The translations under genes were made by a program, and so were the position numbers. From Bradyrhizobium sp. SZCCHNS1050 (GTDB taxonomy: Bacteria; Pseudomonadota; Alphaproteobacteria; Rhizobiales; Xanthobacteraceae), in contig NZ_JAUETR010000001.1 of the NCBI RefSeq assembly GCF_032484785.1, forward strand, positions 1,302,001 to 1,366,000: DNA of 64,000 nucleotides, in the 5' to 3' direction. Positions within the stretch are counted from its first letter, which is position 1. Every line of letters starts with the position of its first letter. The notes under the pieces are model-generated. The model had not been told where the DNA came from. It saw only the letters and a list, made by a program, of their open reading frames with translations, and searched no databases. This document shows positions 24,589-33,195 of this stretch, piece by piece.

Positions 24589-24802
24589 GTGGGCCCAGTT
24601 TCCGGGCGTGAGAAGCGTCACATCTCCATGCCCATCCGGATGCTAACCAAAACGGCCATGCGGCCTCCGTCTGTACGCCATTCGTTTCTCCTTTGATCCG
24701 GTCTGCTGCGGCCAGTTGATTGGATTTGACGGCGAAATTCCCTATAGGGCGGAGTGAATTGGACTGCCGCAGCGGCACTGTGAGGCCGCCAGAGGGATCG
24801 TG

Positions 24803-26857
24803 ATGACTTTGACCAGCTCGGCCCCCGCGCGCGCGCCGCGCGACCCGGGAAATTACCAGACCGCCCTGCAATCGACGGTGCGGGCGGCCGCGGACTGGCT
24901 GATCGCCAACCAGAAGCCCGACGGTCATTGGGTCGGCCGCGCCGAATCCAACGCCTGCATGGAGGCGCAATGGTGCCTGGCGCTGTGGTTCATGGGGCTC
25001 GAGGAGCATCCGCTGCGCAAGCGCCTGGGCCAGTCGCTGCTCGACAGCCAGCGCCCGGACGGCGCCTGGCAGGTCTATTTCGGCGCCCCCAATGGCGACA
25101 TCAACGCGACCGTCGAGGCCTATGCCGCGCTGCGCTCGCTCGGCTTCCGCGACGACGAGCCGCCGGTGCGCCGCGCCCGCGAATGGATCGAAGCCAAGGG
25201 GGGCCTGCGCAACATTCGCGTGTTCACGCGCTATTGGCTGGCGCTGATCGGCGAATGGCCGTGGGAGAAGACCCCCAACATCCCGCCCGAGGTGATCTGG
25301 TTTCCGCTCTGGTTTCCGTTCTCGATCTACAATTTCGCGCAATGGGCACGCGCAACCCTGATGCCGATCGCGGTGCTGTCGGCGCGGCGGCCGAGCCGGC
25401 CGCTGCCGCTCGAGAACCGGCTGGACGCGTTGTTTCCGCATGGGCGCAACGCGTTCGACTACGAGCTGCCGGTCAAGGCCAATGCCGGCGGCTGGGACAA
25501 GTTCTTCCGCGGCGCCGACAAGGTGCTGCATGCCCTGCAGAACCTCGGCAACAAGCTCAATCTCGGCCTGTTCCGCCCGGCGGCGACCAGCCGCGTGCTG
25601 GAATGGATGATCCGCCACCAGGATTTCGACGGCGCCTGGGGCGGCATCCAGCCGCCCTGGATCTACGGCCTGATGGCGCTCTACGCCGAGGGCTATCCGC
25701 TCAATCATCCCGTTCTCGCCAAGGGCCTCGATGCCCTGAACGATCCCGGCTGGCGAGTCGATGTCGGCGACGCCACCTACATCCAGGCGACCAACAGTCC
25801 AGTGTGGGACACGATCCTGACCCTGCTCGCCTTCGACGATGCCGGCGTGCTCGGCGATTACCCCGAGGCCGTCGACAAGGCGGTCAATTGGGTGCTCGAC
25901 CGCCAGGTCCGCGTGCCCGGCGACTGGTCGATGAAGCTGCCGCACGTCAAGCCCGGCGGCTGGGCGTTCGAATACGCCAACAACTATTATCCCGACACGG
26001 ACGACACCGCCGTGGCGCTGATCGCGCTGGCGCCGCTGCGCCGTGATCCGAAGTGGCAGGCCAAGGGCATCGACGAGGCGATTCAGCTCGGCGTCGACTG
26101 GCTGATCGGCATGCAGAGCGAGGGCGGCGGCTGGGGCGCGTTCGACAAGGACAACAACCAGAAGATCCTGACCAGGATCCCGTTCTGCGACTACGGCGAG
26201 GCGCTCGATCCGCCGTCGGTCGACGTCACCGCCCACATCGTCGAGGCGTTCGGCAAGCTCGGCATCTCGCGCAATCATCCCGCCATGGTGCGCGCGCTCG
26301 ACTACATCCGACGGGAGCAGGAGCCGAGCGGCCCGTGGTTCGGCCGCTGGGGCGTCAACTACGTCTACGGCACCGGCGCGGTGCTGCCGGCGCTGGCCGC
26401 GATCGGCGAGGACATGACGCAACCCTATATCGGCCGCGCCTGCGACTGGCTCGTCGCGCATCAGCAGCCGGACGGCGGCTGGGGCGAGAGCTGCGCCTCC
26501 TACATGGATGTCAGCGCGGTCGGCCGCGGCACCACCACGGCGTCACAGACGGCGTGGGCGCTGATGGCCCTGCTCGCCGCCAACCGTCCGCAGGACAAGG
26601 AGGCGATCGAGCGCGGCTGCATGTGGCTGGTCGAGCGCCAGTCGGCCGGCACCTGGGACGAGCCGGAATTCACCGGCACCGGCTTCCCCGGCTATGGCGT
26701 CGGCCAGACCATCAAGCTGACCGATCCCTCTTTGCAGGAGCGGCTGATGCAGGGCCCGGAGCTGTCCCGCGCCTTCATGCTCCGCTACGGCATGTACCGC
26801 CACTACTTCCCGCTGATGGCCTTGGGCCGCGCGCTGCGGCCGCAGGGGCATGGGTAG
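24803..26857 (+). CDS. shc: Squalene-hopene cyclase
   Basis: 684-residue monotopic membrane enzyme converting squalene to hopene/diplopterol for hopanoid membrane lipids. The catalytic acid motif PDTDDTAVA is intact, and several QW repeats are visible (QKPDGHWVG, QRPDGAWQV, QDFDGAWGG, QPDGGWGES). Length is normal. ATG 24803 preferred, GTG 24800 adjacent. The usual hpn genes (squalene synthases, hpnH) do not follow; an IS element is 70 bases downstream, so the gene is a stand-alone or separated member of the pathway here. Confidence 0.97.
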   Translation: MTLTSSAPARAPRDPGNYQTALQSTVRAAADWLIANQKPDGHWVGRAESNACMEAQWCLALWFMGLEEHPLRKRLGQSLLDSQRPDGAWQVYFGAPNGDINATVEAYAALRSLGFRDDEPPVRRAREWIEAKGGLRNIRVFTRYWLALIGEWPWEKTPNIPPEVIWFPLWFPFSIYNFAQWARATLMPIAVLSARRPSRPLPLENRLDALFPHGRNAFDYELPVKANAGGWDKFFRGADKVLHALQNLGNKLNLGLFRPAATSRVLEWMIRHQDFDGAWGGIQPPWIYGLMALYAEGYPLNHPVLAKGLDALNDPGWRVDVGDATYIQATNSPVWDTILTLLAFDDAGVLGDYPEAVDKAVNWVLDRQVRVPGDWSMKLPHVKPGGWAFEYANNYYPDTDDTAVALIALAPLRRDPKWQAKGIDEAIQLGVDWLIGMQSEGGGWGAFDKDNNQKILTRIPFCDYGEALDPPSVDVTAHIVEAFGKLGISRNHPAMVRALDYIRREQEPSGPWFGRWGVNYVYGTGAVLPALAAIGEDMTQPYIGRACDWLVAHQQPDGGWGESCASYMDVSAVGRGTTTASQTAWALMALLAANRPQDKEAIERGCMWLVERQSAGTWDEPEFTGTGFPGYGVGQTIKLTDPSLQERLMQGPELSRAFMLRYGMYRHYFPLMALGRALRPQGHG

Positions 26858-26934
26858 GCGCGATTAGCAGCACGCCATCTTGGAAGCTGCAAGCCACGCC
26901 CACCGCTGTCGTCCCGGGCTTGACCCGGCAACTG

Positions 26935-27876
26935 TTATGTTGATGGAGTGATCGCATAAGGTTTTCGGTCGCGCATCATGGCATTCAGGATGGTTAGAAG
27001 CTTCCTGGCGACGGCGATGAGGGCGAGCTTGGCGGGTTTACCGGCTTGGCGCAGACGGTTGTAAAAGATCTTGAAGCGATCGGCGCGGCGGACGGCGTTG
27101 AGGGCGGCCATGTAGAGGGCGTCGCGGACACGCTTCCGGCCGCCGCCGATCTTGCGCTTGCCACGATACGCCCCGCTATCGCGATTGAAGGGAGCCAGGC
27201 CCGCAAGAGCGGCTACCTCCTTTGGCCCGAGATGGCCGAGTTCCGGCATCTGGGTGATGAGTTGCATGCAGGCGACGGGTCCCACACCGGGCACGGAGCG
27301 CATCAGCTGTGCCTGCTCCGCAAGCACCGGCTCGGCTTTGATGAGCGCGTTGATCTCGGCCTCGATCTCGACGATCTCGTCATTGAGGACCTCGATCAGG
27401 CGGCTGATGCGTTCGGCCATGGCGCGGTCCTCGGCCTCGCTGCGGCGGTTCTTTTCCTGGGCGCGCATGGCAACCAGTTGATCCCGCCGTTTTGCAAGCC
27501 TGGCGAGGGCGCTTTGGGCAGGCGTCATGGCCTGCTCGGTGGCTGGCTGCATGGCGCGCCCAAAGGCTGCCAGCGTTCGCGCGTCGATCGGATCGGTCTT
27601 GGCGAGTTGGCCGCTGGCGCGGGCGAAATCGCGAGCTCGAGCCGGGTTGATCCGCGCAAAGCGGATGCCCGCCCGACGCAGGGCCTCGCGCAGTTCGAGG
27701 TCGTAGACACCCGTGGCCTCAAAGACCACCAGAACATCGCATCCCCAACGCGCCACCAGCTGTGTGATGGCCTGTGGCCCGTTGGCGATGCGCTCCGGCG
27801 CCCCCACGGCTTCATCAAAAATATCGAGATAGGGTTTGCAAACGTCGATTCCGACGCAACGAAAAGGTACGATCAC
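26935..27876 (-). CDS. IS110-family transposase/recombinase
   Basis: 313-residue RNA-guided recombinase of the IS110 family. The N-terminal RuvC-like domain keeps the DEDD tetrad: Asp11 (GIDVCK), Glu53 (VVFEATG), Asp95 and Asp98 (KTDPIDART). A coiled-coil linker spans about 140-190 and the C-terminal Tnp_20 domain (from SVPGVGPVACMQLITQMPEL) holds the serine in FNRDSGAYRGKR expected to attack DNA. GTG 27876 is the start; the frame is intact and full length, so the element may be active. The donor loop of the predicted bridge RNA ends just before the start codon. Confidence 0.95.
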   Translation of the reverse strand: MIVPFRCVGIDVCKPYLDIFDEAVGAPERIANGPQAITQLVARWGCDVLVVFEATGVYDLELREALRRAGIRFARINPARARDFARASGQLAKTDPIDARTLAAFGRAMQPATEQAMTPAQSALARLAKRRDQLVAMRAQEKNRRSEAEDRAMAERISRLIEVLNDEIVEIEAEINALIKAEPVLAEQAQLMRSVPGVGPVACMQLITQMPELGHLGPKEVAALAGLAPFNRDSGAYRGKRKIGGGRKRVRDALYMAALNAVRRADRFKIFYNRLRQAGKPAKLALIAVARKLLTILNAMMRDRKPYAITPST

Positions 27877-27880
27877 GGTG

Positions 27881-28006
27881 CCTGTCCCTGTGATGCGAGG
27901 TCTGTTGGCGCAGCCTCGTGCAACTGTTCAGGTTGATAAATGGAACGGGCGGGAGACCGAGCCGGCTCACGGCGTCTAGCGCCAAGGACCCAACGGCTTC
28001 CCGCCC
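27881..28006 (-). ncRNA. Predicted bridge RNA of the IS110 element
   Basis: Two hairpins with internal loops in the non-coding 5' end. Target loop: outer stem 27999-28006/27947-27954, inner stem 27994-27998/27960-27964, cap 27980-27983/27971-27974. On the minus strand one side reads TGGGTCC (27992-27986), identical to the left target half; the other reads TGAGCCGG (27969-27962), matching the inverse of the right target half at 7 of 8 bases. Donor loop: stem 27929-27932/27881-27884, cap 27914-27918/27896-27900; one side AACAGTTG (27928-27921) equals the IS 3' end, the other CACAGG (27892-27887) is the inverse of core plus IS 5' end. Pairing logic follows published IS110 bridge RNAs; the fold is by eye. 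Confidence 0.75.
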
Positions 28007-28252
28007 ACCATCATCATGGCAGACTTTCCAGACACAGGGACCCATAACTACCGGGAGTGGTTTGAGGCAGGCGCGTAGTTGGCAGTTCGCCCACCACCAC
28101 GGCCGCGGAGTATGGGTCCCGGGTCAAGCCCGGGACGACACTTGTTGTGCCATCGTGGCCACTCCACCACTGTCATGCCCCGCGCAGCCGGGTTCATCCA
28201 TTCCGCCGGAACAGAAATGGAGGCCGACAAGCGGCGGCTCAGCCTGATCCGA

Positions 28253-29407
28253 TCAGAAGCAGGTGGTGCGCTCGGCCGCCATGTAGCCGAGCAGCAGGCC
28301 GGCGCCGAACAGCAGCACGAGGCCGGCGGCACCGAATTCGAGGCCGCGCATGATCAGTGCGCCGCCGCCCTCGCGGCCGGCGCTGAGTCGGCGGGCGACG
28401 TCCTTGGCGGCGACGGCGAGCACCGCGATGGTCGCGACCGTCACGGCGGTGCCGAGCCCCATCACGAACGTCGCGGCGACGCCGGCCCAGAACAGGCCCT
28501 GCGCCAGCGCGAACACCAGCACCAGGATCGCGCCCGAGCACGGCCGGATGCCGGCGGCGAAGATCGCCTGGAAGCCGCGCTGCCAGCCGCCGGGTCCGGC
28601 GAGCTCGCTCGGCGCCGGGCCGTGGGAATGGCCGCAGCCGCAATCGTCGCCATGGACGTGATCATGATGGACGTGATCATGCGCCACCGCATGAGCATGA
28701 TCGTGGCTATGATGATCGTGTCCATGATGGTCATGACCGTGGTGATCATGGTGATGCTCACGATGCTGGTGATCATGCGCGTGGCCATGATCATGGGCTG
28801 ACTGCGCCACGGCAGCCGCGGGCGCGCCAGCGAGCGCCAGAGCCGGCGCCGCCGGCTGCCAGGTGCGCAGGAACGCCGCGCCCTTGACCCAGACCAGGCG
28901 CGCGCCGAGCAGCGCGATCAGGCCGTAGCTCGCGATCTCCACCACCTTCTCGGCGCTGCACATGCTGGCCGCGGTGGCGTTGAGCAGCACGGCGCCGATC
29001 CCGACGATGGCGACCGCGACCAGCGCCTGCATCAGGCCCGAGGCGAACGACAGCACGATGCCGCGCTTCGCCGTCTCCTGGTTGGCGACGAGATAGGACG
29101 CGATCACCGCCTTGCCGTGGCCGGGGCCCGCAGCATGAAAGATGCCGTAGGCGAACGAGATCGCCAGCAGCCACCACACCGCCGAGCCATCTTGCTTGGC
29201 CGAGCGGATCGCCCCCGACATCTGCCGGTAGAACTCCGACTGCTTCGCGAGCAGCCAGCCGACGATGCCGCCGACCTGTGGCTCCGCCGGTGCGCCGAAC
29301 GGCGATTTGGCGAGCAGCACATGCGAGGCGGCGTCGGCGGCAACGAGCACAGCGACGATCGCGGCGCAGGTAAGGAGCGGTCGAGCGGAGCTGGGGCGAG
29401 GTGTCAT
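28253..29407 (-). CDS. Nickel/cobalt transporter, NicO/RcnA family, with His-rich loop
   Basis: 384-residue inner-membrane protein with about seven membrane segments. HAAGPGHGKAVIASYLVANQ is the NicO/HoxN-type signature and GIRPCSGAILVLVFALAQG the second conserved segment. A cytoplasmic or periplasmic loop at about residues 205-265 contains more than 25 histidines in HDH/HGHDHH pairs plus DDCGCGHSHG, a likely metal-sensing or buffering region. RcnA-type members export nickel and cobalt; import cannot be excluded. ATG 29407 overlaps the stop of the DUF1007 gene as ATGA; an ATG at 29413 is two codons earlier. Translationally coupled operon of three genes. Confidence 0.88.
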   Translation of the reverse strand: MTPRPSSARPLLTCAAIVAVLVAADAASHVLLAKSPFGAPAEPQVGGIVGWLLAKQSEFYRQMSGAIRSAKQDGSAVWWLLAISFAYGIFHAAGPGHGKAVIASYLVANQETAKRGIVLSFASGLMQALVAVAIVGIGAVLLNATAASMCSAEKVVEIASYGLIALLGARLVWVKGAAFLRTWQPAAPALALAGAPAAAVAQSAHDHGHAHDHQHREHHHDHHGHDHHGHDHHSHDHAHAVAHDHVHHDHVHGDDCGCGHSHGPAPSELAGPGGWQRGFQAIFAAGIRPCSGAILVLVFALAQGLFWAGVAATFVMGLGTAVTVATIAVLAVAAKDVARRLSAGREGGGALIMRGLEFGAAGLVLLFGAGLLLGYMAAERTTCF

Positions 29408-30048
29408 GGACATTCCACTGAGATCTTGTTGGCGAAATTCATTCCGAAATTGGCGTTCGCCCCGCCGCTCAGGAATGTCTGTTCGTTCATGGTCTGCGCG
29501 ACGGAGCCGCCGTCGCTCGGTCTCACCAGGCCGAACTTGCAGCCCGAGGGAGCGCTGACCAGCGTGACGGGATCCTTCTCCGCCATCTGGAAATCGATGA
29601 AATAGCTGGGATCGTAGACCTCGACCTGGAGCTGCTTCGGCTTCACCGGCGCCTTCAGCGGCAGGGTGAAGTGCAGGGTCAGCTTGGTGTCCTTGTATTC
29701 GAGGTAATAGTCGACGGGGTCCTCGAGCTTCTGCTTGCGCCCGTCGGCCTTGAGGAAGGTGAAGTAGGCATATTCCTTCAGCGACTCGGCGTTGGTCTGC
29801 GCCAGCGGCGCCAGCTCCTCGCGGGTGTAGACGCCCTTCTGCTTGGTCTCGAGGCCCTGCAGCGCATAGGTCGCGAACATGTCGTCGAAGGTCCAGGCGT
29901 GCCGCACGCCGGTCACCGAGCCATCGGCCGCATAGAGCAGCTGGCTGGTCGCGGTGACCCAGACATGCGGATGGGCGCTCGCCGCGCTCGCGCCGAGCAC
30001 GAGCGTCAGCGCAGCGAGGACGAACCGGACCAGCGCCATCCCCTTCAT
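29404..30048 (-). CDS. DUF1007-family exported protein
   Basis: 214-residue protein with a signal peptide (ALVRFVLAALTLVLGASAASA) and a mature start HPHVWV, a typical amino-terminal metal site of DUF1007 proteins, which often accompany NicO-type nickel/cobalt or zinc transporters. It is probably a periplasmic metal-delivery or sensing partner of the following transporter. ATG 30048 lies one base after the stop of the M3 peptidase gene; the next ATG (30039) would shorten the N-region. Confidence 0.88.
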   Translation of the reverse strand: MKGMALVRFVLAALTLVLGASAASAHPHVWVTATSQLLYAADGSVTGVRHAWTFDDMFATYALQGLETKQKGVYTREELAPLAQTNAESLKEYAYFTFLKADGRKQKLEDPVDYYLEYKDTKLTLHFTLPLKAPVKPKQLQVEVYDPSYFIDFQMAEKDPVTLVSAPSGCKFGLVRPSDGGSVAQTMNEQTFLSGGANANFGMNFANKISVECP

Positions 30049-32699: not shown

Positions 32700-33195
32700 G
32701 CCCAATTTCGCACGTGCCTGTGGTCGTGTGTCAGTCGGTAGGTATCCGGACAAGAGGCCGGACAGCCGCCAAGGGATGAGGAACCGAGGGGCCCTCGGAT
32801 CGTTGCGATCAAGATCACCATGATCGAGATCGTCATGCTCCAGAGCCCAGCATCTCTCTCAAGAGATGCCGCTGAAGGTCACCCCATCTTTTGCAACCGT
32901 GACTGGCAGCCGGAGGCGAACCGGCGCACCCCGCTCTCAACGGGGGACGCGACTTAAAGCAACGACGGATCGGGCTTTTTTGGTCTCTACCGGCAGTCCA
33001 AAGCCGGCGCGGGCTACTGAAAAGGCTTGTCCTTCATTGCCAGGTGTGCGGGCGGGAAATTCCCAACCAATCCACGGCAGCACAATTCGGCTACGGGTTC
33101 GAGGTTTTGTCGCCTTTCCATCGGGCGGCAACGCCAAGGCACCCGTGTCGGGATCATTTTGAACGGGTCTCCGTCGCTGGGGCCGTTTGGAGGGT
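32700..33195 (+). ncRNA. Structured leader upstream of ornithine decarboxylase (speF-type candidate)
   Basis: A 670-base gap with no gene precedes the decarboxylase. It contains ordered hairpins: CCGAG/CTCGG (32784-32798), CATCTCT/AGAGATG around CTCA (32851-32868), CCCCG/CGGGG (32929-32945) followed by GGGC and six T (to about 32979). Alphaproteobacterial ornithine decarboxylase genes are known to carry the long speF leader RNA (Rfam), so this is a probable member. A covariance-model match was not run. The stretch 32525-32700 is AT-rich and likely holds the promoter. Confidence 0.45.

Follow-up and report, generated by a model that had tools for sequence, protein, structure and literature searches.

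The window analysed here, a stretch of 64,000 nucleotides from Bradyrhizobium sp. SZCCHNS1050, carries on its minus strand an insertion sequence whose body, TGTG...GTTG, occupies positions 26929–28036 (1,108 bp without core letters), between an open reading frame at 24800–26857, which by eye we take to be squalene-hopene-cyclase-like, and another at 28253–29413. Read directly along the minus strand, the layout of the locus is TATGGGTC-CC|TGTGTCTGG...AACATAACAGTTG|CC-GGGTCAAG; in other words, the body starts with TGTGTCTGG, finishes with AACATAACAGTTG and abuts the dinucleotide CC on both sides (28037–28038 at the left junction and 26927–26928 at the right, minus strand). The left target half-site, TATGGGTC in minus-strand reading, lies at 28039–28046 in the tail arm of a REP repeat, and the right half-site, beginning GGGTCAAG, runs on into the rest of the REP arm at 26911–26926. 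A search with 29 letters of the left end, allowing up to three mismatches, returns six copies in the same genome, all six with the same ends and length, and three copies are identical in a base-by-base comparison with the window copy. Of 195 Bradyrhizobium genomes, 80 give a DNA match to the element (E ≤ 0.001), mostly short, and 13 hold it at full length. An orthologous empty site was sought in 12 relatives, where the squalene-hopene-cyclase end was not found at the searched loci.

The recombinase gene (26935–27876, minus strand) encodes 313 amino acids from a GTG start, and its stop codon, at 26937–26935, lies 6 bp short of 26929, where the IS ends, and overlaps the left donor half-site there. 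The protein has the Pfam domains PF01548 and PF02371 (DEDD_Tnp_IS110 and Transposase_20), is related to the recombinases of known structure from ISCro4 (9t56, E = 2.2e-32) and IS621 (8wt6, E = 1.1e-31), and contains the equivalents of D11, E60, D102, D105 and S241 of IS621. On the evidence of its sequence the element is a member of the IS110 group, as its domains, its DEDD and serine residues, the structured RNA upstream of the gene, the order and strand sense of the RNA loops and the shared core all indicate. Elements of the IS1111 group have long subterminal inverted repeats and carry their guide RNA at the right end, 3' of the gene, whereas here the RNA lies upstream of it.

This RNA is a bridge RNA with a modelled extent of 130 nt (27880–28009, minus strand), in which a target-binding stem-loop (27944–28009) is followed by a donor-binding stem-loop (27881–27932), both on the minus strand and both derived from the folding of 17 elements and from covariation. 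The initial annotation had proposed folding as a check, and the outcome divides: a simple single-strand fold of 27850–28060 is weak alone (z = -1.75), and its minimum-energy form pairs guide letters mutually and with the element's 5' end, whereas a covariance model built here places the RNA clearly. At Rfam gathering scores no bridge RNA family matched anywhere in the window. Given the weak fold statistic and the lack of an Rfam family, the case for the RNA rests on comparison. Across the 17 elements, the window's included, the target and donor stem-loops are similar in outline, save that the donor loops of two (L049 and L142) differ. The covariance model, R1, has a hand-written structure and was made from 16 of these elements, and its hit in the window, at 27880–28009 on the minus strand (155.5 bits, E about 3e-33), is to that extent a hit on a training member. 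At E ≤ 1e-3 R1 matches 66 of 85 loci, or 56 of 75 once the 10 training loci are removed, the 56 including the near copy L046.

Covariation was scored on 51 loci picked for good R1 scores, 46 of which matched at E ≤ 1e-7. In the alignment of these 46 sequences, which was fitted to the structure and so favours it, 93.9% of cells are paired and 25 of the 30 pairs show compensatory change in both partners; the score for covariation is 0.526 as against 0.205 for shuffled alignments (0 of 500 shuffles), and it falls to 0.05–0.11 when the partners are slid. The conservation of the loops among related elements, on which the initial annotation had staked its reading, is thus upheld. Unconstrained folding of the starting alignment with RNAalifold recovered the apical stems, the donor stem and part of the outer target stem, the last with two sub-groups one base apart. 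In that fold some letters of the left guides were moreover paired with letters of the right guides, which is not so in the hand-written structure. No 5' stem-loop of the kind in IS621 is evident, and R1 gave no match to the IS621 copy (L205) at E values up to 10, such that the IS621 bridge RNA is missed by the model.

Within the two loops, fixed-register extraction yields four minus-strand guides. For the left target the guide is UUGGGUC followed by the core letters CU (27985–27993), of which the U would stand opposite a bottom-strand G as a wobble. The right target guide is UGAGCC with the core complement GG (27962–27969) and is 8/8 to copy L032. In the donor loop, the left guide is AACAGUUG, the same as the IS 3' end (27921–27928), and the right guide is CACAGG, the inverse of the core CC plus TGTG (27887–27892). 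As DNA, the region reads TGGGTCC (27992–27986), TGAGCCGG (27969–27962), AACAGTTG (27928–27921) and CACAGG (27892–27887). When the 160-nt region was shuffled 20,000 times with dinucleotides preserved, these four words turned up in 497, 2,374, 43 and 1,573 of the shuffles, respectively, and all four in order in none.

The initial annotation had claimed just such a complete guide set, and its four half-site matches are all present: TGGGTCC is the left target, the donor loop can be read directly as the IS 3' end and as the inverse of core plus 5' end, and the order of target loop, donor loop and gene, together with the strand sense, is that published for IS621. Its count of 7/8 for TGAGCCGG against the inverse of the right half-site stands for the window copy but does not describe the guide, as the right site CCGGCTCA of a sister copy (G000:C1:2369962) matches it at 8/8; in other words, the mismatch belongs to the window copy.

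The correspondence between guide and site extends to related elements. In a fixed-column test, 38 of 46 rows had readable ends; L146 and L150 were set aside and the out-of-register L050 was kept, giving n = 36. The left target guide scores 5.00 of 7 against its own site and 2.78 against swapped sites, and the right target guide 4.56 of 6 against 1.94 (0 of 20,000 permutations in both cases), values which kinship among the sequences can inflate. For the CC-core elements alone (n = 11, again without L146 and L150) the left guide gives 5.73 against 4.16 swapped (0/20,000) and the right guide 4.45 against 3.60 (7/20,000). A looser first test of the right site in the CC group, with n = 11 including L146 and L150, had shown no difference between own and swapped sites (4.73 and 4.70; 11,078/20,000), and it was replaced by the fixed register because in GC-rich sequence a short word finds a match nearly everywhere. 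The left donor guide agrees with the IS end at 0.97–1.00 per position, largely by construction, since the ends were located through the same match. Beyond CCGG the right-target match is loose: RT position 6 agrees in 0.19 of elements, and the own-genome copies L035 and L036 match at 6/8.

Moreover, guide and site vary jointly. Where the window has GGGTC, the corresponding letters are GGATC in L139, GGATT in G423 (4/4 fetched copies) and GGGCC in G391 (5/5 fetched), and in G313 the site is GTGCAC in four of five fetched copies, the fifth, L196, lying at TTTGCCT-CC despite a GTGCAC guide; the guide letters quoted for these last three groups come from L140, L141 and L142. Several of the altered sites resemble, from their flanks by eye, one arm of the REP of the host, with host-specific letters, although the G313 sites were not recognised as REP. 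Relatives with a CT core behave likewise at unrelated sites; L053, for instance, has the site CTCATC-CT-GAGGAG and the guides CUCAUC and UUCCUC.

It could be argued that the upstream structure is a mere 5' leader which controls translation of the transposase, the guide matches being incidental. The RNA does stop at the start codon with its donor loop over the likely ribosome-binding site, and for another IS110 element, ISPpu9, the available text of PMC8450116 describes a 5'-UTR structure that likely includes the ribosome-binding site and lowers translation. A leader, however, need match neither a target nor the ends of an element, and the tracking of each element's own site by its guide letters (0/20,000 swaps) and the four matches in order (0/20,000 shuffles) make this a very unlikely account of the region. 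A leader role and a guide role can nevertheless coexist.

The identity of the core follows from the copies and from the uninterrupted repeats. All six own copies (6/6) have the flanks TATGGGTC-CC | ... | CC-GG, and a pattern search finds 19 uninterrupted repeats starting TATGGGTCC, of which 18 contain TATGGGTCCCGG and one TATGGGTCCAGG. CC is the only dinucleotide common to both junctions and the empty site, and is therefore the core. Among relatives, 140 candidate loci were collected (some fetched twice, for example L001, L031 and L117), of which 94 were parsed and 46 were unparsed or dropped for unclear ends. The parser accepted an element only if its two ends had the same core and TGT followed the left one, such that other designs would be missed, and within these bounds the 94 loci, duplicates included, have the core CT in 55 cases and CC in 39. 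Two of the dropped loci have GC (L076) and AC (L107) as right-hand core, with the left end unconfirmed in both. The guides agree with the DNA: the core letters of the right target and right donor guides (RTG and RDG) are complementary to CC in 11/11 CC elements and to CT in 25/25 CT elements (n = 36), the second core letter of the left target guide being looser (in the CC group CC in nine and CT in two, in the CT group several letters).

The CC core might still be thought a reading artefact, with exchange in a different register within the C run and a true core that is CT-like, inasmuch as the CCC of the target makes the position of a two-letter core ambiguous from one junction and the left target guide of the window has CU at the core. 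This is less probable still than the leader account, since the GG is preceded by CCC, no more and no less, in 18 of 19 empty REPs, there is no T at that place in either junction, and RTG and RDG carry GG, not AG, in every one of the 11 CC elements. The core CC/GG, in place of CT, which the initial annotation had read from the window, is thus borne out at both junctions, in the empty repeats and in the guides.

A maximum-likelihood tree was built from 87 recombinases (16 CC, 40 CT, 2 ambiguous and 29 unlabelled). A single branch in it, with support of 99/96 and present in 99% of bootstrap trees, separates the 16 CC rows from all the others; the midpoint root serves for drawing only. As the other labelled rows are all CT, save the two ambiguous ones, a single change from CT to CC in the history of the clade would be the simplest account. 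According to the available text of PMC11208158, the T at the second core position is ‘almost invariant’ in IS621 and in orthologues related to it, a main-chain contact of G63 being the explanation given. The element described here, with its CC core, falls outside that description of IS621 orthologues. The glycine equivalent to G63 is conserved in the CC enzymes, which must therefore accommodate a C at the second core place. Clade-wide differences lie close by: at the place of IS621 Val82 there is an Arg in 16/16 CC rows and in 2/40 CT rows (L145 and L097), and at the place of Met66 an Asp in 15/16 CC rows and 0/40 CT rows; the Arg at the equivalent of position 82 is a lead rather than a determinant.

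Two related elements, L146 and L150, which were excluded from the core and tree counts, have a CC core at both ends in the DNA together with AG in the right target guide and UG in the right donor guide, leaving the second core letter unmatched. Their recombinases have Arg82 and Asp66 like those of the CC clade.

A survey of sites covered 33 copies from 14 Bradyrhizobium genomes, including the own genome, limited to fetched copies with both ends readable; the best two or five matches in each relative genome were scored, such that copies per genome are a lower bound and more are possible. TGGGTC stands left of the core in 29 of the 33 and CCGG at the right in 32. The departures from TGGGTC are L041 and L044 (TGGATC), L009 (TGGGGC) and L046, in which both sides differ. 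A pattern-recognised REP holds 30 of the 33 copies, L043, L046 and L009 lying outside, and in none of the 33 is the CGTC arm of the repeat at the left. In this regard, the target is, by an assignment of our own, the CGTC-type REP of Bradyrhizobium, with a CGTC head and a CCA-like tail, and what the guides read is a linear stretch in one arm of it, the palindrome itself not being needed. That the recombinase instead recognises REP hairpins through protein–DNA contacts, without RNA guidance, would suit the 30 of 33 copies in REP-like repeats but is the least probable explanation of all, given the empty CGTC arm (0/33), though GTC-CC-GG is also offered there, the three copies outside pattern-recognised REP, and the altered guides that go with altered sites in relatives, one of them at GTGCAC-CC-GG.

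The initial annotation had named insertion of other copies at dissimilar sites as the finding that would tell against it; the sites prove alike, with TGGGTC in 6/6 own copies as well as in the great part of the survey. Its phrase that the element ‘targets palindromes’ was, by contrast, too strong, in view of the linear reading of a REP arm, the three copies outside any pattern-recognised REP and the relative at GTGCAC.

The CGTC REPs in these Bradyrhizobium genomes are recurrent landing sites of an IS110 element, and a second, intact unit, TATGGGTCCCGGGTCAAGCCCGGGACGAC at 28111–28139 (plus strand), stands as an unused target next door, ~70 bp past the element in the window. The near copy L046 (in G183, at the same place as L004) has the flanks GAGGT-CC and CC-GC, unlike the guides, and represents either an off-target insertion or an assembly rearrangement.

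Some elements also lie close to bridge-RNA sequence. The left flank of L197, one of the four G313 copies at GTGCAC, is itself bridge-RNA guide sequence, and in L146 (1225–1400 and 2395–2560), as in L197, elements are in, or are left-flanked by, the letters of a bridge-RNA left target guide. Because the left guide equals the top strand of the target, a bridge-RNA gene can itself resemble a target, and one may speculate that the poor match at the second core letter seen in many left guides might serve as a safeguard against self-targeting.

Taken as a whole, the ends of the element, its core, the RNA structure, the covariation of guide and site and the conserved catalytic residues, all of them read from the DNA, point with high confidence to an IS110-group bridge-recombinase element that would use a circle, a bridge RNA, recognition by two loops and strand exchange at CC for insertion into a REP arm. 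By analogy with IS621, excision as a circle would join the ends as AACAGTTG-CC-TGTG. The joined ends are spanned by TTGCCT-17-CATGAT, found by script from its resemblance to the promoter consensus, and the predicted promoter, the -10-like box of which is CATGAT at 28013–28018 (minus strand; likewise assigned from consensus resemblance only), would be whole only in the circle. From this box to the start of the modelled RNA is 3 nt, and to the strong stem 6 nt; room for a 5' stem-loop ahead of the target loop would hinge on the true transcription start. An RNA of ~130 nt would then be transcribed ahead of the recombinase gene and be bound by the recombinase. Its first loop would engage the target, the left guide on the bottom strand of TGGGTC and the right guide on the top strand of CC-GGCTCA, and its second loop the element's own junction, through the left guide AACAGTTG and the right guide CACAGG. 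The DEDD/Ser recombinase would swap strands at the CC core, and the element would be placed in the tail arm of CGTC-type REP repeats.

Putative handshake letters can be assigned by analogy with IS621, as set out in the available text of PMC11208158. In the target loop a C (27961, minus strand) would pair with donor G7, and in the donor loop GA (27885–27886, minus strand) would pair with the TC before the core of the target. The GA follows the right donor guide in 35 of 36 elements, and the C follows the right target guide, opposite a donor G, in 35 of 36; being almost invariant, these letters provide no test of handshake pairing. In four elements the donor end is ACGGATA and so does not finish in G. 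Two of them (L154 and L164) carry a T at the position following the right target guide where C is usual, in line with a prediction from handshake pairing; for L158 and L166, the remaining pair, placement of the guide was not clear.

The GA would pair with the TC before the window core, yet it is constant even among elements with other target letters, probably because AGGGA, or AAGGA, at this place doubles as a Shine-Dalgarno sequence. In the window, AGGGA (27885–27889, minus strand) lies 8 nt ahead of the GTG as the likely Shine-Dalgarno of the recombinase gene, and overlaps both the right donor guide and the handshake letters. Of 44 elements, which are related and some closely so, 38 have AGGA or GGGA at the close of the right donor guide and its handshake letters, followed after 6–10 nt by a start codon in frame, the six exceptions being L107, L109, L145, L146, L147 and L150. 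IS621 has CAAG-GT with an ATG 10 nt on, but in a Pantoea relative the distance is 29 nt and the purine-rich site is a separate one, for which reason the overlap of guide and Shine-Dalgarno would not be universal. The coincidence of donor-loop letters with the likely Shine-Dalgarno is apparently new, nothing on such an overlap having been found in the available text of the bridge-RNA and seekRNA papers cited here. We propose, tentatively and as a possibility against which the odds presently lie, that the letters which read the core and make the handshake are at once the Shine-Dalgarno of the recombinase, such that folding of the bridge RNA competes with recombinase synthesis and the choice of core is limited. 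If so, cores would be restricted to letters that preserve a Shine-Dalgarno (CT giving AAGGA and CC giving AGGGA), and translation, in addition to structure, would help to explain why the parsed cores are CT or CC.

Among known systems the closest comparison is with IS621 (PMC11208160 and PMC11208158, in their available text), which shares the recombinase with DEDD RuvC and serine Tnp domains, an RNA in the left non-coding end before the gene, a target loop followed by a donor loop, left guides equal to the top strand with right guides inverse, insertion in REP, a putative junction promoter and putative handshake letters. It differs in its CT core, as against CC here, in its host and REP, in a recombinase related at E 1.1e-31, and in an RNA of 177 nt with a 5' stem-loop, as against about 130 nt with none evident. 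The seekRNA of ISEc21, according to the accessible part of PMC11187229, is likewise an upstream non-coding guide RNA which matches both target strands, with a circle that has a junction promoter and with natural redirection in its relative ISMch6; unlike the present element, and by description alone, ISEc21 uses a linear site in IS3-family genes, with insertion reported to occur without duplicated target bases. ISPpu9/ISPpu10, ISRm19 and ISPa11 (PMC1525189 and PMC8450116, available text) are also IS110 elements at a conserved place in host REP repeats, a likeness of description rather than of guides, and their hosts are Pseudomonas and Sinorhizobium. As for the target, its CGTC head and CCA-like tail, in Bradyrhizobium, are by our own assignment those of the CGTC-tagged REPs of Alphaproteobacteria described in the available text of PMC3733652; the same text finds CGTC repeats to be without association with transposase genes, save for a few fortuitous cases, whereas in the present genomes a bridge-RNA element inserts into them.

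The suggestion in the initial annotation that the guide set may be undescribed holds only in part. Bridge RNAs are common in the IS110 group, having been predicted in 85.7% of the IS110-group elements of ISfinder (PMC11208160, available text), and, as far as the accessible text of each source goes, IS110 bridge RNAs (PMC11208160), targeting of REP by IS110 elements (PMC1525189) and natural redirection (PMC11187229) are already published. What is apparently new is a single well-supported clade, set among relatives with a CT core, in which the DNA and the guides alike have a CC core. No description of the element or of a CC-core clade was found in the literature covered, the search having stopped short of ISfinder, preprints, most subscription papers, figures and supplements.

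Bridge recombinases are under development as RNA-programmed tools for the insertion, inversion and excision of DNA, and the two-letter core limits the sites at which they can be used. Published reprogramming of the IS621 core, in the portion of that work available, altered the first letter only (AT, GT and TT). A CC clade with matching guides and defined protein differences allows a direct test of what determines the second core letter, and offers ready-made enzymes of a different core. Moreover, the clade displays natural retargeting, with guides and sites that vary jointly among GGGTC, GGATC, GGATT and GGGCC and with the unrelated GTGCAC in one relative. Outside the element, the sole Rfam match at gathering score in the window is a speF leader (RF00518) at 32988–33146 on the plus strand, with 48.6 bits against a threshold of 37.
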